A DNA stretch of 64,000 bases from a virus: positions 30,887 to 94,886 of the IMG/VR virus record IMGVR_UViG_3300025073_000036; one strand, given 5' to 3'. The notes beneath the pieces are model-generated. The model searched no databases and had not been told where the DNA came from. It saw only the letters and a program-made list of their open reading frames with translations. This document shows, one piece after another, positions 45,814-64,000 of this stretch. Within the stretch, counting starts at the first letter, position 1. Each line of letters starts with the position of its first letter. A program made the position numbers and the translations under genes.

Positions 45814-46283
45814 CCGGTCTTTGACTACCCCCCGAGCAGGGCAAGGCCGCCCGTTCGATCCCCCGCCTCGACGCCTGGCAATCCGCCGTCGAGGCATTCG
45901 TGGGGCGCGGGCCAACGGTGTGCGTCCCCGACGCTGGTAAGTGCCGAGCCCGCCGCCACCTCCGGTGTTCCCCCACCGACGGCGGTTGAGAAGGACGAGC
46001 GGCCCGTGCGTCAAGCCAGGGCGGGCCGGTTCGTTGATAGATTCCCGTTGTGGCACCAGCCTGGGTAGCCGGTAGTGGACAATCCGGCCATCGCGGGCAA
46101 CCTTGCATCGGAAGGCGGCTACGCCCGACAACCCTGAAAGGGGCGGCCCGTCGGCAACGTCACAAAGCCGCAGCTCGCTCCCAAGCCTGCAGCAGGCAGC
46201 GAGCGCCCGGGCCGGTGCCTCTTCCTCTTCCGTGGCCGCGTGTTACGATGCGCGCCAGTCCAGCCTGGGGGAGCGGAAAGCGC

Positions 46284-49200
46284 ATGCGCCGTCTCGATCT
46301 CGACCATCCGATCAAGCGGTCTGCGCTGCCCCCGTCCCCCGACCCGGCGGCAGATGGCGACGATCCGGAGGTCTCGACCGCGATGGCCTTCGCGCAGCCC
46401 GCCCCGCCCCCCAGGCTGGACGCTCTACTTCAAGGCGTGCCGGAGGCCCGCCGGCCGGCCGCCAGGCGAGTGCTCGAGGAAGGCGGCCCCGGGTGGCGCC
46501 GCGAACTGCTGGCCCTCCTGGCCGGGCAGGACGAGGCCCGCGCACGGGCCGTGCTCGGCATGGCAGCCGAATACATGCAGGCGCAGCCGCGCCGGACGAG
46601 GGAGAAGCGCGTGAAGCTCACGGATACGCTGCGCAAGGCCGATGATCTGCTGCGCCGGGTGCGCGGCCTCGACGGGGCCGACGGTGGGGAGCGCGAGATC
46701 TCGGCCGAGATGGGCGCGATCCTGTGGGCGCGCCAGGAGAGCGACCTCGTCAAGGGTGAGTCGCACAAGTACCTGCGGCGTGTTCCGACCGGCAACCCGC
46801 GCCGGCCGTGGCGCTACTTCTACAGCGTGGCCGGCGGCAAGGGGCTCGGCCACGAGGACGAGCTCGTCGAGGGCGCCGCCTTCCTGCTCGAGCACAACGG
46901 CAAGCGCGGGCACTTCCATGTCATCGGCCGCACGCCGGACGGGAAGATCACGGTCCGGCACGACGAGAGCGGGCACACCGAAACGCTCGACCCGGCCGTG
47001 TTTGTGGCCATGCTGCACCGAGGCCACGCCCAGGCCATCGCGGCCCACGCCGAGCGCATGGGCCGCGATCTCTCCGCCGTGCGGCAGAGCGGCAGCGCCC
47101 GGCAGCGCGCCCGCCTCGAGGCCGAGGCGGGCAAGTACGGCCACACCCGACACCTCGTCGAGGCCCAGGCCAAGGATTCCAAGGTCGAGCGCCTGCTCGG
47201 TGCGCTGGCCACGGCCGAGGCCGACGCCGCGCGCTTCAAGCGCGAGGGCAAGTTGCGCTCGCTCTACGACGTGAACAGCATGATCGCCGGCCTCAAGCGT
47301 CAGATCCGCGAGGCCGGCGGCCAGGTGCCCGACGAGGTGGCACCTCCGCCGGAAGCGCCCGCCGCGCCCGCACCGGGCAAGGTGCTGACCTTTCCGGGCG
47401 CGAAGGCCTCGAGCGCAGCACCGGAGGCCGGGCCGCCGGGCCTGCCCGCCGCCACGCAGGCCAAGGTCGACCGCGTCGTCGATGGCATGATCGCCCAGGT
47501 CATTCCGCCGGGCCTCAAGGGGCATCCCCGCGTCGGCGAGTTGCACGAGGTCATCCGGGCCTGGGCACAGGAGAACGGCCAGGCCATCGGCGACGGCGAC
47601 ACGGACGCGGTCAAGGCCGCCATGCCCGCGCTCTCCGAGCGCATGAACGCCGTCGGGCGCGAGCTCGTGGCCACGCCGTCGAACACGGTGCCGCTGGCCC
47701 CGAAGAGCGCGGGCGGCAAGGACCCACACCGCGCGCCGGCCCCGGGCGACCGGATCGTCTACAACGCCCCATGGCACGGCGGGGGGCTGCGGGCGACCGT
47801 GACCGGCCTGGCGTCCGATGGGCACATGATGCTCGTCAAGTACGACGACGGCACGACGGGCTCGCTGCCCGCGAGCTTCATGCACCCGGCCTACACCGAC
47901 CACGGCAGCAAAGCCTACTTCGAGGAATTGCGGCCGTCCGGCCCGCCGTCGGAGGCGCAGATCGTCGAGATGAAGGCCCGAGCGGTGGCCCGCCGGCTGG
48001 AAAAGGAAGCCCAGGAGCGGGCCGAGGCCGAGGCCCACGCGCGCGAAACGGCTGGCTGGCACTCGCCCAAGGACCGCACCGAGAACAACAAGCGCCTCAA
48101 GGCCGCGCTCAAGAAGATCACCGGGCACGACTGGTCTGTCACCGGCAGCACCGGGACCGGTTACGGCTGGGTGCATGCCACCCCCGGCATTCCTGACGGA
48201 GAGACGGCCGAGTACCGGGACGGGCCGCACAAAGACCTCTACCGCATGGTCTCGATCATCAGTCCGGGCTCGCGTGACTACGTTCTGCGCGAGGTCGAGA
48301 AGCGGGCCGGCATCTTCACCCCGGGCGCGGTCACGCCGGAGCAGCACAAGGCCCAGGTCGAGACCGACAAGGCGGCGCGAGAGGCGGCCGGGCAGGCGGC
48401 CGCCTCGACGGTCAACGTCGGGTCGGTGGTCCAGATCGACGGCCACCCGCGCCGCTACCTCGTGACGGCGAAAAAGGCCTACGGCGGCAGCCCGCCGAGT
48501 TTCCAGCTCGCCGCACTGTCCGGGGCCGAAGCGGGCAGCGCGCCGAGCGGCGTGGCCGCCGCGCGCGTGACGCTGCACCCGGATCAGACGGTCGCCTTCC
48601 ACGGGGCCAACGCGCCGAAGCTGCGCAACAAGGCCGCCGCGCACGCTTTCATCTACCGCGCGGACCACCCGGAGGACACCGAGCGGGTGCGGGCGACGAT
48701 CAACGCCGCCCCCGTGAACCTCGACCCGCCTCCGGCGCCCACGAAGGCCGACCGGGTGCAGCGGGCGCGCGAGCGGGCCGTGGAGGCCGGGACGGCCTTG
48801 CCTACCGCCCCCGCGCCCTCCCAGGCGGCCGAGCCTTCAGCCGAGCCCGCTGCGGCCGCAGCGCCGGCCGGCGATGTGCGTTTCGGTGACGTGAAGACGG
48901 CCACGACCCGCAGCACCGGCGTCACGGTCTATCAGGCCCCGACGAAGGGGAACGTGCCGGCCGAGCGCCTGGCAGAGATGGACGCCGACGCCAAGGCCCG
49001 GGGCGGCTACCGCCTGCGGGGCGAGCCGCACACGTTCCGCACCGAGGCCGCAGCTCGTGACTTCATGGCGAAGTGGGGCACCCCGGCATCCACTGAGGCC
49101 CCGCTCGATGGTCGGGCAGCCGAGCACGAGGGCAAGGCCGCGCGCCACGAGGTCGAAGCCAGCCGCTTCGAGCCTGAGCATCCCGTCGCCGAAAAACACC

Positions 49201-52148
49201 GCGAGGCGGCCATCGCACACCGCAAGGCGGCGCGAGCATTCGACCGCGCGGCCGCGAGCCCCAGCATGGCGCCCATGGCTGGCCGGCTGGCCGACGAGGC
49301 GCAGGCCCGCAGCCGGGACGTGGAAAGCGTCGCCGGCCGCCTGGCCGAGCGTGACGCGCTCCGGCAGGCCGCAGGGCAGCCCGGGCCGGCGAGCAAAACG
49401 CCGGCCGAGCGGGCGGCGCCCGCCGCATTGCCCACGCCCGCCACGCCGACCGGCCTGCAGCCGGCGGACTCGGCGCACTATCAGGTGCTGGGCGGCGACT
49501 CTCACGAGGTCGCCCAGGCCCGTCAGAAGGCCAAAACGGCCGCCGCCGAGTACGAGCGGGCCACCGCCATGGCCTACGCGCGAAGCAAGGGCGCCAACCC
49601 CGGATCGGCCGCAGCCCGGGAGGCGAAAGAGGTCGCCGGTGACCGCCGGGAGCGGGCCGAAGCCGCGCACGATGCGCTCGTAACCGCCGTCGGCAGGATG
49701 GCCGGCAGCGTGGCCCCGGCGGCCCCGGTCGAGCTACCTCGCACCGGCGTTGTCGAGGTCAGCCGCCGCGACCCGCTGACCGACCGGGTCAGCATCGAGC
49801 GCGTGGATCTCGATGCCCACCGGGCGCAGTGGGCGGCCGCCGCGCGGACCTACGACGACGATCTGCTCACGGCCAAGATCAAAGGCCACCGGGGCAACGT
49901 CACTTCCATGCGTTTCCACCAGGCGGGCGAGCGGGCGCAAACTGTCGTTGCGCTCGAGGCCCTGGAGGCCGAGAAGGCCCGCCGCAAGGTCGAGCGGGCT
50001 GCGCCCGCCGCTGCCCCGACCATCACCGCCGAGCAGGCCTCGACGGCCGCCGCCGCGCAGCGCGACAAGCACACCGACCGCGCCGTCTGGCACCGAGATC
50101 GCGCCGACGCGCTCGAGATGATGGGGGACTCGAGCGGCGCCGCGAAACACCGGGACGCGCACGGCGCACACGCTGCCGCTGAGAGCGCGCACCACGCCGT
50201 TCGGGTCAACGTCGTCAACGGCCGCGCCAGCATGCTCGACACGCTCATCCCGGCCGCGCAGCAGAAGACGACCGCCGCCGAGCGGGCCTCACAGGCGGCC
50301 GACGCTCACATCGCCGCCCCGACGAAGAGCAAGGACGAGATCGAGCACGACCTGGGCCGCAAGGGCGTCGGGTACATGGACCGCGTCGAGCCCGTGATCG
50401 CCGAACTGGAGGCCAAGCGGGCAGCAGCAGGCCCCGGGGCCGCCAGCGAGCAGCAGGCCCACCCGGGGGCTGCGCCTGCAAAGTGGACGAAGCGCCACGA
50501 CGAAGGCGGCCGGCCGGTCTACGACTCGCCCAGCGGCCGCGTGCGGGTCATCGGCAACCCCAACGGCCTGCACCATGTCATTCAGCAGGATCTCGCCACC
50601 GGGCGCTGGGTGGGCACCTTCGACGGGCCGCGCTCCGAGGCCATGGAGGCCGCCGTGCGCACGGAGGCCTCCGCCGCGCAACAGACGGTCGAGACCGAGA
50701 AGGCCCGCGAGGCGGCCCTGCAGGCGGGCGAGCGCGAGGCCCGCGCCCGGGCCATGCTCGGCACCGAGACGGCTTCCGTCGTGGCCGCCGGGAACGCGCG
50801 CCGCACGGCCGAGCAGCGGGCGGCCGATCACGCTCTCGCCGACCGCGCGCAGGCCGCGCGCCACGCATTCAGCGCAGCGGTGCAGGAGCATCAGGGCGGC
50901 GCCGAGATCAACCGGCACTCGCGCCGGCTGATGGATCTCGACTCCGGCGTCAACGTCCTGCGCACCAGCCGGGACGCCGTCGGCGGGCAGATGAGCCCGG
51001 GCGCGCTCGATGGCAACCGGGCGCAGGTGCGATCCGAGGCCGAGGCCCTGGAGGCCGCAGCGGCGAAGATCAAGGCCGAGGCCGCGTCGCCGCCCCCGGC
51101 CCCCGACGCACCCCACGCGCACGCGCTCGGTGTCGAGGTCAGCCGTGCGCAGGTCAACCGGCGGCTGGCCCAGGCAGCGCACGAGGGCACGAGCCATGTG
51201 CCGGAGAAGCGGGCCGAGCAGGAGGTCGACGGTTACGTCTCGCACATGAACGAGGTGGCCGCCGATCTCGCGCGGCACGCCACGACGCCGGAGAAACGCG
51301 CGCAGCTCAAGGAAGAGCTGGAACGCTACCGGGACGGCTACCTGCAGCGGTTCCACGCCCACCTGTCGGCCCGCTCTCGCGTGATCTCGCCGCTCGTGAC
51401 CGGCCCGGCCCGCTTCCCGGTCGCACGCAATCAGAAGGCCAACGCCACGGCCGACAAGCGCACCGGCGAGCTCGTGGAGTGGTCGACCAGCGCCCGCCGT
51501 GCGATCCGCAACAAGCTCAACCCAGCGACGGTCTCGTCCGACCGGGCCGACGCACACGAGATCCTGACCGACCGAGTCGGGAAGCTCCGGCAGCGTCAGG
51601 AGTCGATGAAGGCGCAGAACGCCATCATCCGGGGCAAGGGCAGCGAGGACGAGAAGATCGCCCGGCTGCGCGAGCTCGGTCTCGGCGAGGCGGCGGCCCG
51701 CGCGCTCTTCAAACCAGATTTCGCCGGCCGCGTCGGCTGGCCCGACTACGTGCTCAAGAACAACCTGGCCGAGATCAAGCGCCTCGAGGGCCGCTCGGTC
51801 GAGGTGGCCAAGGAAACGAGCACGGCCTCGAGCGAGCACACCTTCGGGGACGTTCGCGTCGAGGACTCGGCGGAGGACAACCGGATCAGGCTCTTCTACC
51901 CGGGCAAGCCCGACGCCGAGACCATCGGGAAGCTCAAGCGGCACGGGTTCCGCTGGTCGCCGAGCGAAGGCGCCTGGCAGCGGTTCCGCAACGACAGCAC
52001 CCGGTCGGTGCTGCGCCATCACTTCGGGATGGATCTCGGCTCGTCGGGGGAGAGCGAGGGAGAGTCGCTGCAGAAGGCCGAGCCGCCCCGGTCGAGCGAG
52101 CTTGTGAGCCGCGCGGACGCGCTGCTCGCTCTCGTTCGTGGTGCCTGA
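46284..52148 (+). CDS. Giant polyvalent virion protein
   Basis: A 1954-residue protein. ATG 46284 is chosen for its GGGGGAG site; ATG 46248 is an alternative. Near residue 160 an HKYLRRVP...WRYFYSVAGGKG domain is followed by HFHVIGRTPDGKITVRHDES, nearly duplicated in the gene at 56887. The centre is Ala/Glu/His-rich and helical with repeated short 'EAAxxHRxAA' units. Near 1865-1925 the segment NRIRLFYPGKPDAETIGKLK plus GFRWSPSEGAWQRF is a domain known from polyvalent proteins. KADDLLRRVRG and the terminal SRADALLALVRGA resemble motifs in neighbours. Such proteins are often packaged and injected with the DNA to counter host defences. Confidence 0.7.
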   Translation: MRRLDLDHPIKRSALPPSPDPAADGDDPEVSTAMAFAQPAPPPRLDALLQGVPEARRPAARRVLEEGGPGWRRELLALLAGQDEARARAVLGMAAEYMQAQPRRTREKRVKLTDTLRKADDLLRRVRGLDGADGGEREISAEMGAILWARQESDLVKGESHKYLRRVPTGNPRRPWRYFYSVAGGKGLGHEDELVEGAAFLLEHNGKRGHFHVIGRTPDGKITVRHDESGHTETLDPAVFVAMLHRGHAQAIAAHAERMGRDLSAVRQSGSARQRARLEAEAGKYGHTRHLVEAQAKDSKVERLLGALATAEADAARFKREGKLRSLYDVNSMIAGLKRQIREAGGQVPDEVAPPPEAPAAPAPGKVLTFPGAKASSAAPEAGPPGLPAATQAKVDRVVDGMIAQVIPPGLKGHPRVGELHEVIRAWAQENGQAIGDGDTDAVKAAMPALSERMNAVGRELVATPSNTVPLAPKSAGGKDPHRAPAPGDRIVYNAPWHGGGLRATVTGLASDGHMMLVKYDDGTTGSLPASFMHPAYTDHGSKAYFEELRPSGPPSEAQIVEMKARAVARRLEKEAQERAEAEAHARETAGWHSPKDRTENNKRLKAALKKITGHDWSVTGSTGTGYGWVHATPGIPDGETAEYRDGPHKDLYRMVSIISPGSRDYVLREVEKRAGIFTPGAVTPEQHKAQVETDKAAREAAGQAAASTVNVGSVVQIDGHPRRYLVTAKKAYGGSPPSFQLAALSGAEAGSAPSGVAAARVTLHPDQTVAFHGANAPKLRNKAAAHAFIYRADHPEDTERVRATINAAPVNLDPPPAPTKADRVQRARERAVEAGTALPTAPAPSQAAEPSAEPAAAAAPAGDVRFGDVKTATTRSTGVTVYQAPTKGNVPAERLAEMDADAKARGGYRLRGEPHTFRTEAAARDFMAKWGTPASTEAPLDGRAAEHEGKAARHEVEASRFEPEHPVAEKHREAAIAHRKAARAFDRAAASPSMAPMAGRLADEAQARSRDVESVAGRLAERDALRQAAGQPGPASKTPAERAAPAALPTPATPTGLQPADSAHYQVLGGDSHEVAQARQKAKTAAAEYERATAMAYARSKGANPGSAAAREAKEVAGDRRERAEAAHDALVTAVGRMAGSVAPAAPVELPRTGVVEVSRRDPLTDRVSIERVDLDAHRAQWAAAARTYDDDLLTAKIKGHRGNVTSMRFHQAGERAQTVVALEALEAEKARRKVERAAPAAAPTITAEQASTAAAAQRDKHTDRAVWHRDRADALEMMGDSSGAAKHRDAHGAHAAAESAHHAVRVNVVNGRASMLDTLIPAAQQKTTAAERASQAADAHIAAPTKSKDEIEHDLGRKGVGYMDRVEPVIAELEAKRAAAGPGAASEQQAHPGAAPAKWTKRHDEGGRPVYDSPSGRVRVIGNPNGLHHVIQQDLATGRWVGTFDGPRSEAMEAAVRTEASAAQQTVETEKAREAALQAGEREARARAMLGTETASVVAAGNARRTAEQRAADHALADRAQAARHAFSAAVQEHQGGAEINRHSRRLMDLDSGVNVLRTSRDAVGGQMSPGALDGNRAQVRSEAEALEAAAAKIKAEAASPPPAPDAPHAHALGVEVSRAQVNRRLAQAAHEGTSHVPEKRAEQEVDGYVSHMNEVAADLARHATTPEKRAQLKEELERYRDGYLQRFHAHLSARSRVISPLVTGPARFPVARNQKANATADKRTGELVEWSTSARRAIRNKLNPATVSSDRADAHEILTDRVGKLRQRQESMKAQNAIIRGKGSEDEKIARLRELGLGEAAARALFKPDFAGRVGWPDYVLKNNLAEIKRLEGRSVEVAKETSTASSEHTFGDVRVEDSAEDNRIRLFYPGKPDAETIGKLKRHGFRWSPSEGAWQRFRNDSTRSVLRHHFGMDLGSSGESEGESLQKAEPPRSSELVSRADALLALVRGA

Positions 52149-55441: not shown

Positions 55442-56890
55442 GTGCAGGTCGAGATCCGAGAAGCGCAGCCGGGCGAAGTCGTCGAGAAGCTGCCCGCCAT
55501 CGTCGAGGCCCTGCTCAAGGCCGATCCGCAGGCCGACGACGCGCTGATCAAAGCCGTGGTCGGCCGGGTCCGTGCCGCAGGTCAGGAGCACGGCCACGAG
55601 GCCGCCCCGGAGGACCCGGGGGCGGCCGAACGGTTTTGGCGTTGGCAGGTCGGCGCCCGCCTGTCGCAGGCCGGCCGGGAGGCCTTCGGGCGCCGCTACG
55701 CCCGGATCTCCGCCCGCCTGTCGGCCGAGGTTTTCGGCGACGAGGACGAGCTCGTCAAGGCGTGGTCGGTGGGCGGATTGTGGGGCGCCGTCAGGGGCGC
55801 CGCCTCGCGCCTGCGGGCCACCCTGGCCGACCGTCTGGCGCGCCTGCGGGGCATCGTCTCCGACGAGCACAAGGCCCTCGCGGTCGACCTCTACGGCCCC
55901 GACGCCGTGGACGGGCAGACCCTCGAGCGTCTGCGGCAGGACGGCACGATCTCCGACACCGACCTCGAGACGGCCGGCCAGCTCGGCATCCTGGGCGGGG
56001 CCAGCGAGATCGGGGCGGTCCTGGCCGACGACGAGAGCGCCGACGATCTGAGCGTGCCGGAGGCCCGCCGGCTGGCCGAACAACTGGCGGCCGACCGCGT
56101 CGAGGCCCCGGAGGCGCCCCCGGCGCCGCCTCCGGCCCCACCGCCCCCGGACGAGCCACCGCCCGCCCCCCCGCCCGGCGGGGACGACGCCGCACGCACC
56201 CTGCGCCAGGTGGCGGCCGAGCAGGCCCGGACGAGGGGCGCGCAGCGCGTCGTCGGCCTGGGGAACACGGTCGGTGACGACCTCGTCACGGTGGCCATCG
56301 ACAGCGAGAACGAGCGCGCCCAGGAGCTCCGGCGCCGCATCGCGCAGTCGGTGGGCGAGGGCATCGCGCAGGGCGAGTCGCGCAACGAGATCCGCCGCCG
56401 CGTCGTGGCCGCGCTCGAGGGCGACTACGCCCGCGACATCGACCGCATCGTGGACACCGAGACGCACACGGCCATGCAGCAGGCCTACGCCGACCGCACG
56501 CTCGAGCGGTACGGCAAGGACGTGCTCGTCGCCGTCGTGCCGTCGCCGTCGGCCTGCGCGGCCTGCCTGCGCCTCTACACCGAGGGCGGCACGCCCAGGA
56601 TCTTCCGTCTGGCCGAGCTGCCGCCGTCGGCCGTGAACTTCCGGCGCAAGGCCGCCGACCGGGTGGCCTGCCTGCCGCCCCTGCATCCGTGGTGCGGCTG
56701 CCATGTCATCCGTGTGCCCGCCGGGTGGACCATCGACAAGGCCGGGATCGTGATGCCGCCACCCAAGCGCAAACCGGAGCCGGAGGGCGCGCCGCCCGCC
56801 GGGGGTGACCCGCTGGTCAAGGCCGATCCGCCCGCCGTCGCGCGCCCCGCCTGGACGTGGGGCCGCCGTTTTCGTGAGGGGAACCGATGA
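55442..56890 (+). CDS. MuF-like phage head morphogenesis protein
   Basis: A 482-residue protein with GTG 55442. A helical N-terminal half and a Pro-rich linker (PPAPPPAPPPPDEPPPAPPP near 225) precede the MuF core: DIDRIVDTETHTAMQQAYAD, SPSACAACLRLYTEGGTPRI and LPPLHPWCGCHVI, with the CxxC and HxxCxC ligands of the family. MuF proteins are minor head proteins attached to the portal and may be injected. It overlaps the next gene by 4 bases. Confidence 0.75.
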   Translation: MQVEIREAQPGEVVEKLPAIVEALLKADPQADDALIKAVVGRVRAAGQEHGHEAAPEDPGAAERFWRWQVGARLSQAGREAFGRRYARISARLSAEVFGDEDELVKAWSVGGLWGAVRGAASRLRATLADRLARLRGIVSDEHKALAVDLYGPDAVDGQTLERLRQDGTISDTDLETAGQLGILGGASEIGAVLADDESADDLSVPEARRLAEQLAADRVEAPEAPPAPPPAPPPPDEPPPAPPPGGDDAARTLRQVAAEQARTRGAQRVVGLGNTVGDDLVTVAIDSENERAQELRRRIAQSVGEGIAQGESRNEIRRRVVAALEGDYARDIDRIVDTETHTAMQQAYADRTLERYGKDVLVAVVPSPSACAACLRLYTEGGTPRIFRLAELPPSAVNFRRKAADRVACLPPLHPWCGCHVIRVPAGWTIDKAGIVMPPPKRKPEPEGAPPAGGDPLVKADPPAVARPAWTWGRRFREGNR

Positions 56891-58938
56891 AGCTGTTTTC
56901 GTGGGGAGAGCGTTTCACCGCCCGTGCCGGGCTGACCTTCACCATGCCGGTCTACGACGACGAGCTGCGCAAGGGCATGCTCGAGGACGGTTTGACGAGC
57001 ATCCGTCTCGTGCCGCTGCCGCCCGTGCTCGGCGCGCTGCTGTGGGCCGGCGAGTCGTTGCAGCTCGTGAAGGCCGCGACGCACAAGTACATCCGCAAAG
57101 TGCCGGACGGCAAAGGCGGGTGGCGCTACTTCTACGCCGTGACCGGCGGCAAGGGGCTCGGCCACGAGGACGAGGTGCAAACCGGGGCGGCGTTCAAGCT
57201 GACGCACAACGGCCAGGCCGGGCACTTCCACGTCACCGGTCGGGACGCCAACGGCAAGATCACGATCAAGCACGACGAGAGCGGGCACACCGAAACGCTC
57301 GACCCGGCCGTGTTTGTGGCCATGCTGCACCGGGAGCACGCCACCGCGCTCGACGCGCACACGAAGCGCCTGGCCGACACGCTCAAGGCCGCTCGTCAGC
57401 ACGGCACCGCGCGCCACGTCGCCCGCCTCGAGGCCGAGGCCGGCAAGTACGGCCACACCCGGCACCTGGTCGGCGGGGCGGAGCCCGAGCAGGCCGACGG
57501 CGACGCCGGCAACCGTTCCATCGATCTGAGTCGCAAGCTGACCGAGCTCCGAAAGCGACAGCCGCGTCCGCTGGCCAAGATGTTCGGGACCAAGGGGCCG
57601 ACCCCGGAGCAAAAGGCGAAGTACGACGCCGATGCTCGCGCTTGGCAGTCCGAGTACCGGAAGACGCAGGCGGCCCACAAGAAAGCCGTCGAGGCCTCCA
57701 ACGCGGAGATCCACGCGAAGCGGGCTGCAGAGACCGGCCCGGCATCCGATGCGCTGGCGACCGCCCGCGCTCACCTCGAGGACGCCAAGGCCAAGGCGAA
57801 GGCGGGGGACAAGGCCGGCGCGCAGGCCGAGATGAAAGCCGCCGAGGCCCACGCGGCCGTCGTGCGGGCGCACAAGGAAGGCGGAGACACCGAGAAGGCG
57901 GGCAAGGTGGCCGAGGCCGCTACGGCCGCCGCTGGCGGCCCACCGGAGCACAAGCGCGCCGTGCCCGATCAGGTCACGGGCGACGAGCAGCGCCAGCGCG
58001 AGGAGGCGGCCCGGAAGAGTGCCGACAAGCGGCGCGGGACGGGCAAGCCGGAGCAGGGCGCGCCGGTCACCGCCGGAGACGTGAAGGTCGGCGAGCGGGT
58101 GACGGACGGCAAAGGCCGCACCTGGGAGCGGACCGGCTCGTCGTGGAAGGGCGTGAAGGCCGACGGCTCGCCCACCGGCGACATCAGCACCGACAAGGCC
58201 ATCGGGCGCGAGACCCTGCGGCGTGCGCTGCACAACGACGGGGACCGCGCCGTCGCCGCCGATGCCATCCACCGCGCGGCCGGCGAGGCCCACGCCAAAG
58301 GCGACTTCGAGACCCGCAACCGGCTGCAGGACGAGGCCGCCAACCTCATGCCGTCCACGGCCAGTGGGCGGCCGATCCCGCCGGCCGATGTCACGGCCGA
58401 CGAGCGGGCCGAGCACGCGGCCGACTTCGGCGCGCGTGACCACGCCGACGCGGCCGCGCACCACGCGGCCGAGGCCCGGACGGCCGAGGCGTCGGGCAAC
58501 GAACAGGCGGCCGATCTGCACCAGACTGCGGCCGAGCAGCACCGCGAGGCCGTGGTCGAGGCCGTTCAGAGCGGGCAGATCCACGGGCCGAACACGCTGG
58601 CCCTGGAGAACGGCAAGGCCCTGCCGCCCCACGACGCGCCGCCGGCCGCCTGGGACAAGGCCACCGCCGGGTTCAGCGCGGCCGATCACGACGAGGCCGC
58701 CGCCCTGCACCGGGCCAAGTGGCTGGGGTCGCCCGACGACGACGCCGAATCGGCCGGACACATGGCGGCCGCTGCGCGCCACGCCAAGGCGGCCGAGGAC
58801 ATGACGGCCGATCCGAAGGGCGGCGAGCGCGGCCAGTCGCACACGAAGCTCGAGCCGCACGAGCGCGACATGCTGCGCCATTTCGTCGAGGACACGGTCA
58901 AGCACCGCCTCGACGACCTCAAGCAGGGCCTCAAGGAG

Positions 58939-58942
58939 GTAC
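58939..58942 (+). repeat. Target-site duplication, left copy (GTAC)
   Basis: GTAC flanks the left transposon end and is repeated at 63080-63083. Because GTAC is palindromic, it could also be read as part of the inverted repeat, but only its use as a duplication restores the host gene frame. It is shorter than the 8-10 bp expected for classical IS1 elements. Confidence 0.65.
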
Positions 58943-58958
58943 TGGTACAGTTTGAATC
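58943..58958 (+). repeat. Left terminal inverted repeat
   Basis: TGGTACAGTTTGAATC, perfectly inverted at 63064-63079. The next base differs between the ends. Confidence 0.85.
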
Positions 58959-58983
58959 GGGTGGGCGAGGCGGGCAGGGTGGG

Positions 58984-59001
58984 CCGTCAGCACTCTGACG
59001 G
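58984..59001 (-). terminator. Subterminal hairpin, left end
   Basis: CCGTCAG and CTGACGG form a 7-bp stem around CACT. It abuts the stop codon of the RHH gene (59002-59004), so it may end that transcript and shield the element from outside transcription. No T-run follows on the minus strand. Confidence 0.45.
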
Positions 59002-59199
59002 TTAAGCGGCTTCGTTGTCTTCGCTGGCAGCGTTGAGCACCAGCTCGCGAATCCACGCCGACAGGTCCAGGCCGCGCGCTTCCGCCGCCGCCTGAATCAG
59101 ATCGCGCTGCTCATCCGTGACCCGGAACCGGATCACGTCTTCCTTGCGCCCCGCGTCTTCTTTGCGGGGTCGCCCCCGCCGTCTCGTTGCTGTTTCCAT
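59002..59199 (-). CDS. Ribbon-helix-helix repressor of the transposon
   Basis: A 65-residue protein with ATG 59199. A basic N-terminus with an AT-hook-like RRGRPRK precedes VIRFRVTDEQRDLIQAAAEA and GLDLSAWIRELVLNAA, the beta strand and two helices of MetJ/Arc (RHH) DNA-binding domains. RHH proteins bind as dimers to inverted or tandem sites. The best targets are the palindrome at 59259-59282 and the related CTACAT sequence in its own promoter. It likely limits transposase and methyltransferase expression. The predicted transcript is leaderless. Confidence 0.75.
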   Translation of the reverse strand: METATRRRGRPRKEDAGRKEDVIRFRVTDEQRDLIQAAAEARGLDLSAWIRELVLNAASEDNEAA

Positions 59200-59206
59200 A
59201 CCCGTA

Positions 59207-59235
59207 TATGTAGCCACGAAAAATCGACCGGGCAA
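59207..59235 (-). promoter_or_regulatory. RHH gene promoter
   Basis: On the minus strand TTGCCC (59230-59235) and TACATA (59207-59212) are 17 bp apart. Only 7 bases separate the -10 box from ATG 59199, predicting a leaderless message. The -10 contains GCTACAT, shared with half of the neighbouring palindrome, which suggests autoregulation. Confidence 0.6.
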
Positions 59236-59248
59236 GCTCTTTTCCGCC

Positions 59249-59282
59249 TTGCACCCCTGAATTAATGTAGCTACATTAATTC
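59249..59282 (+). promoter_or_regulatory. Transposase promoter overlapped by a 24-bp perfect palindrome
   Basis: TTGCAC (59249-59254) and TACATT (59272-59277) are 17 bp apart on the plus strand. The 24-bp palindrome (59259-59282, arms GAATTAATGTAG and CTACATTAATTC) covers the spacer and the -10 box, as expected for an operator. It is strikingly AT-rich against its GC-rich surroundings. Confidence 0.65.
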
Positions 59283-59331
59283 CAGACGAGGGGGACAGCC
59301 CCGGAAAAAGAAACCCCGCCACGACTGCAAT

Positions 59332-59510
59332 CGGAGGCGGGGTCAACCCAGAGCGGCAAGCCGCCTTGAGCCCTTGGCAGGGACTCGAAGGATGGCCGGC
59401 CCGCTCCCCGTACGCAAGCGGAGGCGGGGTCAACCCAGAGCGGCAAGCCGCCTTGAGCCCTTGGCAGGGACTCGAAGGATGGCCGGCCCGCTCCCCGTAC
59501 GCAAGCGGAG
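59332..59510 (+). repeat. 87-bp in-frame tandem duplication upstream of the transposase start
   Basis: The unit at 59332-59418 is repeated at 59419-59505, followed by a third start of 5 bases (59506-59510). 87 bases is 29 codons, so the reading frame stays open across both copies and an upstream TTG at 59374 would add 48 residues. It sits in the leader between promoter and the likely GTG start at 59518, where copy number could change expression. Confidence 0.8.
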
Positions 59511-59517
59511 AGTCACC

Positions 59518-60372
59518 GTGGCCAACGTCCTGAAGTTCGAGAAGAAGGTCGCCGTCGTTTCCATGCTGGTCGAGGGCTGCTCGATCAACTCCATCGTCCG
59601 CATGACCGGCGTACACAAGACGACGATCCTCAACCTCCTGGTCGATGTCGGCGACGCCTGCGCTGACCTTCTCGATGCCAACGTGCGGGACGTGCCTGCC
59701 TGCGAGGTCCAGGTCGATGAGATCTGGTCTTACGTCGGGAAGAAGCAGGGGCACCTCACCCCGGACGACCGCATGGAGCGGCCGGAGCTGGGCGACGCCT
59801 ACACGTTCGTCGCCATCGACGCCGACTCGAAGCTGATCATCTCCCACATCGTCGGGAAGCGGGACGGATGGCACGCCAACCGCTTCATGAAGGACGTGGC
59901 GATGCGGGTGAACGGCCGCCGCATTCAGGTCACGTCGGACGGCTTCGCGCCCTACGTTGAGGCCGTCGAGGTCGCCTTCGGCTGCGACGTGGACTACGCG
60001 ATGGCGATCAAGGAATACGACGGCGAGGACGCCGGCCGGGGGCGCTACAGCCCGCCGCGCGTCAAGCGCGTCGAGAAGATCCCGATGGTCGGCAACCCGC
60101 GCATGGAGGCGATCAGCACCTCCTACGTCGAGCGGCAGAACCTCACGATGCGCATGAACATGCGCCGCTTCACCCGCCTCACCAACGCCTTCAGCAAGAA
60201 GCTGGAGAACCTCAAGGCCGCCGTTGCCCTGCACTTCGCCTTCTACAACTTCTGCCGGATTCACGAGTCGCTGAAGGTCACGCCCGCCATGCAGGCCGGG
60301 CTGGTCGGGTCCATGTGGACCATCGCCGATCTCGTCTCGTGGTCGGAGAGCGCAGTCGCCCAGGCGGCATAA
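59518..60372 (+). CDS. IS1-like DDE transposase
   Basis: A 284-residue protein. GTG 59518 is chosen because it follows GGAG and places the start (VANVLKFEKK) where relatives begin; ATG 59479 within the repeat is an alternative. An N-terminal HTH (CSINSIVRMTGVHKTTILNL) precedes the catalytic domain with D67 (VQVDEIW), D141 (VTSDGFAPYV) and E205 (YVERQNLTMRMNMRRFTR). The block after E205 (LTNAFSKKLENL, CRIHESLKVTPAMQAG) is typical of the IS1-like group widespread in environmental bacteria. All three acidic residues are intact, so it should be active. Confidence 0.85.
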   Translation: MANVLKFEKKVAVVSMLVEGCSINSIVRMTGVHKTTILNLLVDVGDACADLLDANVRDVPACEVQVDEIWSYVGKKQGHLTPDDRMERPELGDAYTFVAIDADSKLIISHIVGKRDGWHANRFMKDVAMRVNGRRIQVTSDGFAPYVEAVEVAFGCDVDYAMAIKEYDGEDAGRGRYSPPRVKRVEKIPMVGNPRMEAISTSYVERQNLTMRMNMRRFTRLTNAFSKKLENLKAAVALHFAFYNFCRIHESLKVTPAMQAGLVGSMWTIADLVSWSESAVAQAA

Positions 60373-60378
60373 CGCTTG

Positions 60379-60399
60379 ACGCCGTGGAAGGCGTTTTTT
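60379..60399 (+). terminator. Terminator after the transposase
   Basis: ACGCC and GGCGT form a 5-bp stem around GTGGAA, followed directly by six T. It sits 6 bases after the transposase stop, so the following restriction-modification gene probably needs its own promoter or read-through. Confidence 0.7.
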
Positions 60400-60437
60400 C
60401 TTGTGGTTATGTGGTTGTGTGTGATCCAATGTGATCC

Positions 60438-63031
60438 ATGACGCAAGCCGCAATCGACGCCGACTACCTCTTCTGCCCCGTTCGCGGGCAGCTCAACGTC
60501 AAGGAACGGGCCAAGGACGGCCTGAAGTTCACCGAGGAGAAGTGCCGGATCGATGCCATCCGGTACATGCTCACCAAGGGCTACCCCAAGGACCACTTCG
60601 GCATTGAGACGACGCTGCTGCGGCTGGGCAATCAGGGCAGAAACTCATTCCGCGTGGACTTCTCGGTCTACGACGTGCCCTTCACCGACATCGCCAAGGC
60701 CCCACTGGACGAGCGCACCCCGCACATCAAGCTCGTGGCGGAGATCAAGCGCGACAACAGCACGGCGACGACTGCCAAGGCCACGCAGGTTCTCCCCGCC
60801 ATCAAGCTCCTCGACGACTTCACCGCGTTTGGCGTCTATTGGGACGACGTGGAACAGCGGTTCTTCTACCGGACGCTGGAACAGAAGATTGCGCAGATCC
60901 ACGAGGCGCCGATCAGCAAGCTCCCGAGGTGGGGGCAGGGCGTCATTTCGACCGCATTGACCTACGGCGACCTGCGCACCCCACAGGAACTGCTCAAGGT
61001 CTTCGACGAGATCGAGGTGGAGCTGCATCCGCACGTCGCGGACAAGGCCAAGCGATACGCGATCCTGCTGCAACTGCTGCTGGTGAAGATCGACGACGAG
61101 AATCGGCACGTTCGCGCGCCGACCGCCGCCCTGGACCTTCAGGACTTCTCGGAGGCGGCGGTCGCCGACGCCGTGGTCGTGGCGAAGATGGACGAGCTGC
61201 TGGGCCGCGCCCTTCAGCACTACCAGCACCACCTCCCCGAGCCCATCGCCACGCGCATCCAGGCACCGCCAGAGGCCATCCGTCGGGCGACGAAGATCCT
61301 CGCCCCTGTGAACCTGCTGCGGTCCCAGAAGGAGGTCATTCAGGCGTTCTACATGAAGTTCGCCAAGAGCCTCTACAAGTGGGATCTGGCCCAATACTTC
61401 ACGCCCAACGAGGTCATCGACTTCATCGTGGACATCGCGAGCCCGCAGTACGGCGAGCACGTCAAAGACCCCGCCTGCGGTAGCGCGGACTTCCTCGTGA
61501 GCGCCTTCCGAAAGAGCGGCCAGTCGCCCGACGCGGCGCACTGCATCTGGGGGTCGGACAACAGCGGGCAGGCCGTTCAGGTGAGCGTGCTCAACATGCT
61601 GCTGAACGGTGATGGCAAGTCGAACATCACCAAAGAGGACAGCCTGGAGTGCTACGGCCCCGACGGCCGAACCTACGACGTGGTGCTGTGCAACCCGCCG
61701 TTCGGCGTGAAGATCGTCGAGAAGCGGTTTTCCGTCCTGCGGAAATTCGACATGGGCCACGCCTGGTCCCCCGGCGCCAGCGGACGCCTGGAGCGCACCG
61801 AAACCGTCCTGACGCAGCAGGAAACGGGCATCCTCTTCGCCGAGCTGTGCGTGCGGTCGGTGAGGCCGGGCGGCCGGGTGGGCATCATCTTGCCCAACGG
61901 CTACCTGGGCAACGCGGGCGGCACCTACCTCGCCCTGCGGGAATGGCTGCTGCGCCACGCCCGGATCGTCGGCGTGGTCGGCTTCCCCCGCTTCACGTTC
62001 AAGAAGTCCGGCGCCGACGTGAGCGCGTCGGTGGTCTTCCTCGAACGCCGGGATACCCCGCTGGCACGGGCCGAGGACTCTGACGACTACCGCTTCTTTG
62101 TCGGCATGGTGGACAACGTGGGCTGGCGGGCCGGGGACAAGGCCAGCGTGCCCGTGTTCAAGCGCACCCCCGAAACCGGCGCTTTGGAGCTGGACGAGGC
62201 CAACAACCCGATCATAGATTCGGACTTCGTCAAGCTCACCGAGGAGTTCATTCGCTCCGCGGCTGGGGACCGCTTTGCGTGGTTACGGGGGGGGGGGGGG
62301 GGGGGGGGGGGGGCGCAACTCCAGACCCCACCAAGGCCAACGCCTGGAGCGTTTCGGTCAAGGGCGTCGTCAGCTCGCCGCGTCTGCTCATCGACCCGAA
62401 GCGGCTGTGTGAGAAGTTCGTCCGACTCCAGACGGCGATCAAGGGCGCCCCGCACTTCCAGCTCCGTGACGTGCTCGAAGAGGTGAAGGCGGCCGGTTTC
62501 AAGGCCAAGGCGGCCGAATTCTACCAGTACGTCGAGATCCAGCGCGTGGGCATCGGCACCTTCGACTACGAGGAGCTGCGAGGCTGGCAGCTCCCATCGC
62601 GAGCGAAGTTGCGCGCCGAGGTCGGGGACATCTTCATCGCCTCGATTTGGAGTAGCGCCGGCAAGTGGTTCATGGCTGGCGGGGTGACGACCGCGATGGT
62701 TGTGACCAACGGCTTCACGCGACTGCGGCTCAAGGCTGGCATGGAGGAGTACCTGCCGGACATCGTGGCGGGCCTGTCCTCCGAAGCCTTCCGGGTACAG
62801 ATGCGGGGCTACGCGACCGGGTCTGACGGGCTGGCCGAGATCCCCACCACCGATCTGCTCGACATCGTGCTCCCCAAGCTCCAAGGTGAGGACGCCCGGA
62901 AGAAGCTGGGCGACACCGCCGCGCGGCTCCGAAATGCGGAGGTGACGCTGGAGCGAACCGTTGACGTGTCCTGCGCTGGCGAGGCGTTGCCCAAGGTGCC
63001 GCGGCGCAAGGATCACTGGGCGCTGGTCTAA
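60438..63031 (+). CDS. Phase-variable Type IIG-like restriction-methylation-specificity enzyme (out of frame here)
   Basis: In this copy the frame from ATG 60438 runs to a stop at 62486 (682 residues), passing through the G tract and then reading non-native sequence. The N-terminal domain has D74 (FRVDFSVYD) and E102-x-K104 (LVAEIK), a PD-(D/E)xK nuclease as in HsdR-type N-termini. Methyltransferase motif I is DPACGSADFL (344-353) and motif IV NPPFG (419-423), an N6-adenine gamma-type enzyme. The specificity half lies in a different frame from 62315. A tract of 25 or 28 G would join both into ~863-864 residues. A truncated OFF product would lack sequence recognition. No separate S or R gene is present. 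Confidence 0.75.
62287..62313 (+). repeat. 27-base poly-G tract
   Basis: A run of 27 G interrupts the restriction-modification gene between its methyltransferase and specificity halves. Slippage by +1 or -2 G would fuse them in frame. Tracts of this kind drive phase variation in other restriction-modification genes. The exact length is the part of the sequence most prone to sequencing error. Confidence 0.8.
62315..63031 (+). CDS. Specificity (target-recognition) half of the phase-variable enzyme
   Basis: After the G tract this frame reads TPDPTKANAWSVSVKGVVSS and continues to a stop at 63031, about 238 residues. VEIQRVGIGTFDYEELRGWQ, GDIFIASIWSSAGKWFMAGG and DLLDIVLPKLQGEDARKKLG resemble Type I S / Type IIG target-recognition domains with their closing helix. 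It has no ribosome binding site of its own. It can be translated only by frame repair of the tract. Confidence 0.65.
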   Translation, partial: ATPDPTKANAWSVSVKGVVSSPRLLIDPKRLCEKFVRLQTAIKGAPHFQLRDVLEEVKAAGFKAKAAEFYQYVEIQRVGIGTFDYEELRGWQLPSRAKLRAEVGDIFIASIWSSAGKWFMAGGVTTAMVVTNGFTRLRLKAGMEEYLPDIVAGLSSEAFRVQMRGYATGSDGLAEIPTTDLLDIVLPKLQGEDARKKLGDTAARLRNAEVTLERTVDVSCAGEALPKVPRRKDHWALV

Positions 63032-63049
63032 CCGTCATAGTCCTGACGG
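63032..63049 (+). terminator. Subterminal hairpin, right end
   Basis: CCGTCA and TGACGG form a 6-bp stem in an 18-base block directly after the stop of the restriction-modification gene. It resembles the left hairpin (58984-59001) in sequence and placement. It may act as terminator or as a transposase-recognition feature. Confidence 0.45.
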
Positions 63050-63063
63050 TTTCCTGTGGGTCG

Positions 63064-63079
63064 GATTCAAACTGTACCA
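63064..63079 (-). repeat. Right terminal inverted repeat
   Basis: GATTCAAACTGTACCA, the exact inverse of the left repeat at 58943-58958. It is followed by the GTAC duplication at 63080-63083. Confidence 0.85.
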
Positions 63080-63083
63080 GTAC

Positions 63084-64000
63084 CCGGCATCGCCGAAGAG
63101 GACCGCGAGAACGCCGTCACGCCCGGGATGGAGCGCGTTCTCGCGCGCGCCCTGCGAGGCGAGGCCACGGCGTCGATCCTGGGCCGGGGCGGCGAGGGCG
63201 GCAAGGCCTCCAAGATCCAGCGGCTCAACAACGACGAGCTGGCCGCCCTGCCGCCCGCCAAGGGGTCGAGCGGGTGGAAGGCCATGGCCGAGCGCGCCAC
63301 GCAGCAGCAGGCCGGCGTCCAGGCCAGCCGACAGGCCCGGGACCAGCGGGCGCAGGGCTACCTCGACGGGCTCACGGACAAGTCCCACAAGGCCTACGCC
63401 CTGGCCGCCGGCATCGCCATCATGCACGGCGGGGAGATCAAGCTCCCACGAGGCAAGGCCGGCCAGCCGGCGGCCGATCTGCCCAAGGACGTGAAGATGC
63501 GCCTACGGCGCGAGATCGCGCAGGCCATGGGGCACGGCGGCCCGGGCGCGGCCCCGGTCGAGATCGCCGAGACGCGCACCGACGCGCCGCTGCCGAAAGA
63601 CCTGTATCAGGCCGCCAGGAAGGGCCTCGCGCCGTCCGTGGAGACCACCGTTGGCGCCCGCCGGGCGCAGGAGGCCGCGCAGGCCCCGGCGGCGCCGAAG
63701 CCGGACAACGCGAAGGCGTCCGCTCACGAGAGCCGGGCACGCGCCTACGAGCTCACCGGCGACAAAGAAGGCGCGGCCCTGCACCGGGAGGCCGCAGCCG
63801 CTCACGGGAGCGGCGCACCTGGCGCGCAGGACGCCAGCGACAAGGCGGAGGCCTGGCGCGGCGGTTGGAATGTTGGCGCCGCCGACGATCCGGCGCAACC
63901 CGGCGCGGGCGGCAAGCACGATGAGACGTGGCAGGCCGGGCATGCCCACGGCGCGGCATTCAGCGCGGGCGGTAGCGCCAGCGGCAAGAATCCGCACCCG
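63084..64000 (+). pseudogene. 3' part of the interrupted polyvalent virion protein
   Basis: With codons set from 63086 the frame is open to the window end. It reads PGIAEEDRENAVTPGMERVL, KASKIQRLNNDELAALPPAK and, near the end, ESRARAYELTGDKEGAALHR, the same Ala/His-rich helical style as the 5' part. Joining codon 685 (GTA at 58939) to this segment after removing one GTAC gives at least 991 codons in one frame. ATG 63129 could start a separate product if the fragment is still translated. Confidence 0.75.

Follow-up and report, generated by a model that had tools for sequence, protein, structure and literature searches.

An IS1-like unit transposon with a putatively switchable restriction-modification gene, inserted in a phage gene

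Background

Insertion sequences (ISs) that carry passenger genes are an established class, the transporter ISs or tIS (PMC9330008, PMC3129680). Among larger elements, Tn7-like transposons carry cargo enriched in defence and toxin-antitoxin genes (PMC8649781). Likewise, phase-variable Type IIG restriction-modification (R-M) enzymes are known, e.g. Cj0031 of Campylobacter (PMC8355987). The open-access literature searched, which did not cover subscription journals, ISfinder or TnPedia, yielded no description of IS1-like elements of the tIS type with defence cargo.

The stretch of DNA analysed here (64,000 nucleotides, hereafter the window) is the final 64 kb of a 94,886-bp virus record, IMGVR_UViG_3300025073_000036. 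It very probably contains a unit transposon of tIS organisation, with an IS1-like transposase, that entered a phage gene by ordinary DDE insertion. Its cargo would be a Type IIG-like switchable R-M gene, restraint by a ribbon-helix-helix (RHH) protein is probable, and its relatives form a large family whose cargo differs and is often defence-like or toxin-antitoxin-like.

Organization of the element

The element spans positions 58938-63084 (4147 bp) and both of its termini are inverted repeats identical at 21/21 bp. A first-pass annotation of the window had recognized these repeats, yet its ends (58943-63079) were 5 bp too short on each side. From left to right, the element consists of the RHH gene on the minus strand, a 24-bp palindrome, two 87-bp units, the transposase gene and the R-M gene. 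The features of the locus are as follows:

56887..58937, plus strand: 5' part of the interrupted phage gene (ORF), downstream of portal and head genes
58930..58937, plus strand: left copy of the target-site duplication CTCAAGGA; the right copy is at record position 99-106, outside the window
58938..58958, plus strand: left terminal inverted repeat GGTACTGGTACAGTTTGAATC, from repeat comparison
58984..59001, no strand assigned: subterminal hairpin CCGTCAGCACTCTGACGG, like the one at 63032-63049, with which it is paired (21 bp, 90% complementary); possibly a terminator or a transposase site
59002..59199, minus strand: RHH protein of 65 aa, NikA-like (E=3e-9, above the Pfam cut-off) and TacA1-like; candidate autorepressor
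59259..59282, no strand assigned: perfect 24-bp palindrome GAATTAATGTAGCTACATTAATTC, flanked by the divergently oriented RHH and transposase genes; a possible operator, with binding inferred
59314..59487, no strand assigned: 87-bp unit in two tandem copies (92% identical) directly upstream of the transposase
59500..60372, plus strand: IS1-like DDE transposase, with an ORF that is open from 59374 and an uncertain start codon
60438..62288, plus strand: R-M gene, 5' frame, with a nuclease-like region and an N6-adenine methyltransferase (DPACGS, NPPF), from profile matches and homologue alignment
62279..63031, plus strand: R-M gene, 3' frame, putative target-recognition part, 51% identical to residues 641-854 of the homologue L003, with a weak Type I specificity match
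62287..62313, plus strand: G27 tract in the linker that separates the methyltransferase from the target-recognition part; by frame arithmetic, the frames join at 25 or 28 G
63064..63084, minus strand: right terminal inverted repeat; the same terminus also occurs at record positions 78-98
63085..64000, plus strand: right flank as assembled, a phage-gene variant 87% identical to record 373-1157 and without the duplication of the left flank

The GC content of the element (64.6%) is below that of its left flank (72.5%), which fits newcomer DNA. Neither Rfam families nor a sigma-70-like promoter were found in the element region, and the exact element was found complete only here.

Insertion site and record ends

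Within the window, the flanks assembled on the two sides of the element did not match each other. An adjacent deletion was our first reading of the missing duplication, until the record start revealed the real one. The first 98 bp of the record repeat the right end of the element and are followed by CTCAAGGAAGAGCAGCGG; directly after this end stands CTCAAGGA, identical to the left flank, i.e. a perfect 8-bp duplication. The window seemingly lacks a duplication because its right flank, at the record end, is a variant. When the left and right flanks were joined with a single CTCAAGGA, an open reading frame resulted (...DDLKQGLKEEQRFGGMSIYRTKNG...). Furthermore, the homologous gene of a related viral contig (L219) is uninterrupted and 73% identical over 962 aligned positions. 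This empty site displays CTCAAGGA in single copy, with a reading frame running straight across the insertion point. Duplication and empty site together indicate that the element was inserted by transposition.

That these are not transposon genes at all, but phage moron genes lying between chance inverted repeats, is barely conceivable. Methyltransferase or R-M genes are indeed common in phages and the element does sit in one, but the target duplication and the empty site rule this reading out, and the ends conserved throughout the family (see below) also stand against it. Mobility by transposition, which was an inference in the first-pass annotation, is therefore strongly supported at the sequence level by the ends, the duplication, the empty site and the family. 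In the mechanism that we propose, the transposase would move the element and generate the 8-bp target duplication; this step has the same strong support, the activity of the enzyme itself being inferred.

The interrupted gene had been called a phage virion gene in the first-pass annotation. Its phage origin stands, given the nearby portal gene and the uninterrupted copy in L219, but a role in the virion is only likely from the neighbouring head genes and was not shown. No match to its 5' part was found among named phages.

Two different flanks, CTCAAGGA... and CGGCATCG..., follow the right end of the element, and their downstream parts share 87% identity. A second insertion in a related phage, some 160 bp farther on, or an adjacent deletion that followed insertion in a related strain, may account for this, and we give this explanation an even chance. 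In its second-insertion version it implies a junction CGGCATCG-GGTACTGG, but none of the viral contigs with this end showed the matching left flank, and a purely computational mis-join is possible as well. Region 63085-64000 could thus represent another insertion, a strain variant or adjacent deletion elsewhere, or a mis-join, and the matter is undecided.

The contig ends overlap by 98 bp (the element end) and by 99 bp (record 1059-1157), a pattern seen when an assembler leaves a branch unresolved. It is by these two segments that the record start (1-1157, L184) and window positions 63085-64000 overlap, and the overlaps point to a probably circular or terminally redundant genome and to a contig that combines two strain variants.

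Two further observations concern the phage itself. Two of its large proteins (46050-52148 and 56887-58998) have a domain of about 180 aa in common, 60% identical, with the sequence HKYIRKVP..GKGLGHEDE..HDESGHTETLDPAVFVAMLHR. Neither protein had a Pfam match; encoded next to the head genes, both resemble large polyvalent proteins. Several DNA methyltransferases also seem to belong to the phage itself (29948-31012, 37544-38974 and 38971-39915), one of them apparently of the m5C type with a GGFPCQD motif; these assignments are based on ORF motifs only.

Transposase and candidate control region

The first-pass description of an intact IS1-like transposase held: the ORF is open and the catalytic motifs are complete, with D73, D147 and E211 (A1 numbering) invariant. 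The IS1 signature motifs DE-W, DG and ER-NL-R are conserved. The match to Pfam DDE_Tnp_IS1 is just above threshold (24.6 bits, cut-off 24.1), whereas the one to NCBIfam IS1 (NF033558) reached 58 bits, below the equivalog cut-off of 100.

The RHH regulator and the palindromic control region reported along with the transposase were both recovered, the former through its NikA-like and TacA1-like matches and the latter as a perfect 24-bp palindrome, its control role being inferred. The core of the palindrome occurs once in the window and never in shuffled sequence. The RHH protein would probably bind it, between the divergent promoters, and so restrain the transposase and possibly the cargo; that it acts as the repressor of its own element is likewise an inference. 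An RHH relative was detectable in just one other element of the family, so this regulator is not a family feature.

The restriction-modification gene and its G tract

Both frames of the R-M gene match one homologue, the 854-aa single ORF L003, with about 59% and 51% identity, which indicates that the two halves are one gene broken by frame. This agrees with the earlier proposal of a single gene for nuclease, methyltransferase and specificity parts, although the nuclease part is weakly supported. The methyltransferase is clear (N6_Mtase, E=2e-28). In the N-terminal region, D74...E102-x-K104 is invariant across six homologues, which fits a PD-(D/E)xK nuclease but does not prove it; a Pfam search of this region gave no match and a structure-database search only a weak one to RM.BsaXI. 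The AlphaFold model of L003 was of low quality (mean pLDDT 41) and did not serve for a fold search. The succession of predicted nuclease, N6-adenine methyltransferase and target-recognition parts in one gene is a Type IIG-like layout, cutting and methylation being inferred from it.

The G tract, already noticed in the first pass, comprises 27 G at 62287-62313. The window has no other homopolymer of at least 9, and the number of 27-G runs expected by chance is about 1e-7. As assembled, the two frames do not join, i.e. the gene is OFF, and no further stop or frameshift was found in either half. A tract that sets the frame between two parts of one gene, as required of a phase-variable gene, is present here; phase variation itself, enzyme activity and the earlier suggestion that the tract silences most copies are inferences. 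Slippage within the tract would probably switch the full-length enzyme on at 25 or 28 G and off at 27. The 27-G state would leave nuclease and methyltransferase without target recognition, and with the tract in frame the enzyme is inferred to methylate and cut. It may be speculated that an element that is off on arrival inside a phage avoids cutting ahead of methylation.

Two less favourable readings of the frame break have to be weighed. The G27 could be an assembly or sequencing artefact, the enzyme being in frame and constitutively on. This would agree with a contig made of a mixture of strains and with the homologues, which lack the tract and display an ordinary short linker at the same place; moreover, 27 G is far longer than usual phase-variation tracts. 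However, what precedes and what follows the tract align to neighbouring segments of a single homologue. Nor can poly-G read tails yield a stretch that runs on into correct downstream sequence on the same strand. These two arguments make some G tract probably real, though of uncertain length, and an artefact is in our opinion unlikely. Since tract length is unreliable in a metagenome assembly, the OFF state is nevertheless a reading and not a fact about the population.

Slightly less likely still is a dead or decaying insertion, with the R-M gene a frameshifted pseudogene and the element immobile. In the assembly the gene is out of frame and the right flank of the window is unlike the left one, as decay would have it, but the absence of other lesions in both halves and the open transposase with complete motifs argue otherwise. 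In addition, ends identical over 21 bp and a perfect duplication on the other assembly path are as in a recent insertion.

The R-M protein was not found at E<=1e-60 in 990 genomes from three phyla, sets that contained no positive control. There is no such transposase near L003, and where the R-M protein has relatives outside this element, the genes around them are different and transposon ends of this kind are absent. The first-pass annotation would have considered its transposon refuted if the methyltransferase homologues always had unrelated neighbours and the inverted repeats occurred nowhere else. The former is what we observed, but the repeats turned out to be widespread.

A family of elements with differing cargo

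Relatives of the transposase were gathered from viral contigs, plasmids, phages and bacterial genomes. They are mostly 46-57% identical to the window transposase and, as its best matches, do not form an unbiased census. Ends like GGTARTGNNNCAGTTTGAA were sought around 171 relatives and defined 125 distinct elements, which range in length from 1.35 to 6.65 kb around a median of 3.1 kb and have the end consensus GGTARTG... With ends chosen blind to duplications, perfect 8-bp duplications bordered 81 of 108 elements, against 0 in a shifted control. All but two of these relatives (106/108) exceed 1.5 kb, far above the need of a transposase, which indicates that they carry cargo. Named hosts include Proteobacteria, Acidobacteria, Planctomycetes, Verrucomicrobia, Myxococcota, Chloroflexi, Ignavibacteria and others, together with a Brevundimonas phage. 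Copies are few, with one to three per genome in 19 genomes. The member in that phage, vB_BpoS-Gurke (L014:1510-8163), measures 6.65 kb, has an 8-bp duplication and lies in a stretch without annotated genes.

Copies with the same boundaries in different flanks had been proposed as a check on the element. They exist at the family level, where like ends, bordered by 8-bp duplications, enclose different cargo in very different genomes. Closer matches of the ends exist as well: the exact terminal 19 bp of the window element are present in three other viral contigs (L179, L180 and L181), two of which (L179 and L181) have DNA methyltransferase genes as cargo, two of these genes with nuclease-like domains. 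In the first L179 element, the methyltransferase is fused to an Mrr-like domain and lies directly 3' of the transposase; the second carries a 508-aa methyltransferase. For L181, NA-iREase1 was just below cut-off, and no cargo was identified in L180. An identical 8-bp sequence, GGCGGTTC, flanks the first L179 element on its right and L181 on its left, as though these were opposite ends of a single inserted element from one metagenome. In the two contigs (IMG/VR 3300037722), several elements end exactly as the window element does, and methyltransferase-nuclease cargo occurs along with transposase fragments; this looks like an active, rearranging group.

The commonest cargo of the family, in 15 elements, is an XRE protein with a partner of about 160 aa. 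This unknown pair (L122, L079, L080, L123 and 11 others) combines an XRE-type protein of about 385 aa with a small protein without Pfam match. XRE-M78 proteins were found in 13 elements, with M78-type cargo matching the RmrA, PD-Lambda-2_B and CapP profiles, P63C proteins in 11 and ClpP-like proteases in 7. Proteasome-like, Panacea, Schlafen, HipA-like and AAA proteins were also recorded. The names RmrA/RmrT and Panacea point to toxin-antitoxin and related phage-defence networks (PMC10440598). Further R-M cargo consists of a Tsp45I-like nuclease with a methyltransferase (L018), a methyltransferase with HNH (L091), a methyltransferase (L099) and an 831-aa N6-methyltransferase protein adjoining a PIN-domain protein (L039). 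The nearest transposase neighbour had the same cargo class in only 18 of the 67 labelled elements, a nearest-neighbour count with coarse labels and no tree. Judging from these sequences, cargo is swapped freely between elements and is not tied to transposase kinship.

Comparison with known systems

Like Cj0031, the window enzyme would be a single-gene R-M enzyme with a homopolymeric tract as putative switch. It differs by its location on a transposon and by the great length of its tract; membership of the same protein family was not shown, nor was switching. RM.BsaXI (PDB 8w0p) and Type I M proteins match its methyltransferase core and, weakly, its N-terminal layout. Yet BsaXI has a separate specificity subunit, whereas the specificity part lies here in the same gene.

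The element resembles the IS1 family in the recognizable IS1 signature of its DDE transposase, an assignment that is tentative given the profile scores, and in its short duplications; its ends, beginning GGT.RTG, may be related to those of IS1 itself. The target duplication of about 8-9 bp typical of IS1 is also respected (8 bp in the window element and in the 81/108 relatives). In contrast, the present family is distinguished by a match below the NCBIfam equivalog cut-off, a single ORF, 8-bp duplications and the nearly constant presence of passengers. As in transporter ISs, a single IS-type transposase and its ends would move unrelated passengers, and the element qualifies as a tIS or unit transposon since the R-M gene lies within both the ends and the duplication. 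Tn7-like transposons likewise form a family with defence and toxin-antitoxin cargo, but they have median sizes of 14-29 kb, several transposition genes and target selection (PMC8649781), as opposed to about 3 kb and one transposase gene here.

One small transposase with well-defined ends would offer short defence and toxin-antitoxin cassettes a simple route to phages, plasmids and distant bacteria, any benefit to the carrier being inferred. As ends and 8-bp duplications fix the cargo boundaries, unknown passengers are well-delimited candidates for defence systems; the XRE protein with its partner of about 160 aa, P63C and the proteasome-like proteins could be tested as such. A phase-variable R-M gene on such an element, if real, would enter a new host unarmed and be switched on later. 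Compared with the systems above, the elements may constitute an undescribed, very widespread and compact (about 3 kb) IS1-like family, a proposal that we regard as evenly balanced. Its members would be interchangeable carriers of defence, toxin-antitoxin-like and R-M genes across about ten bacterial phyla and phages, the window element being an R-M carrier with a switchable enzyme.
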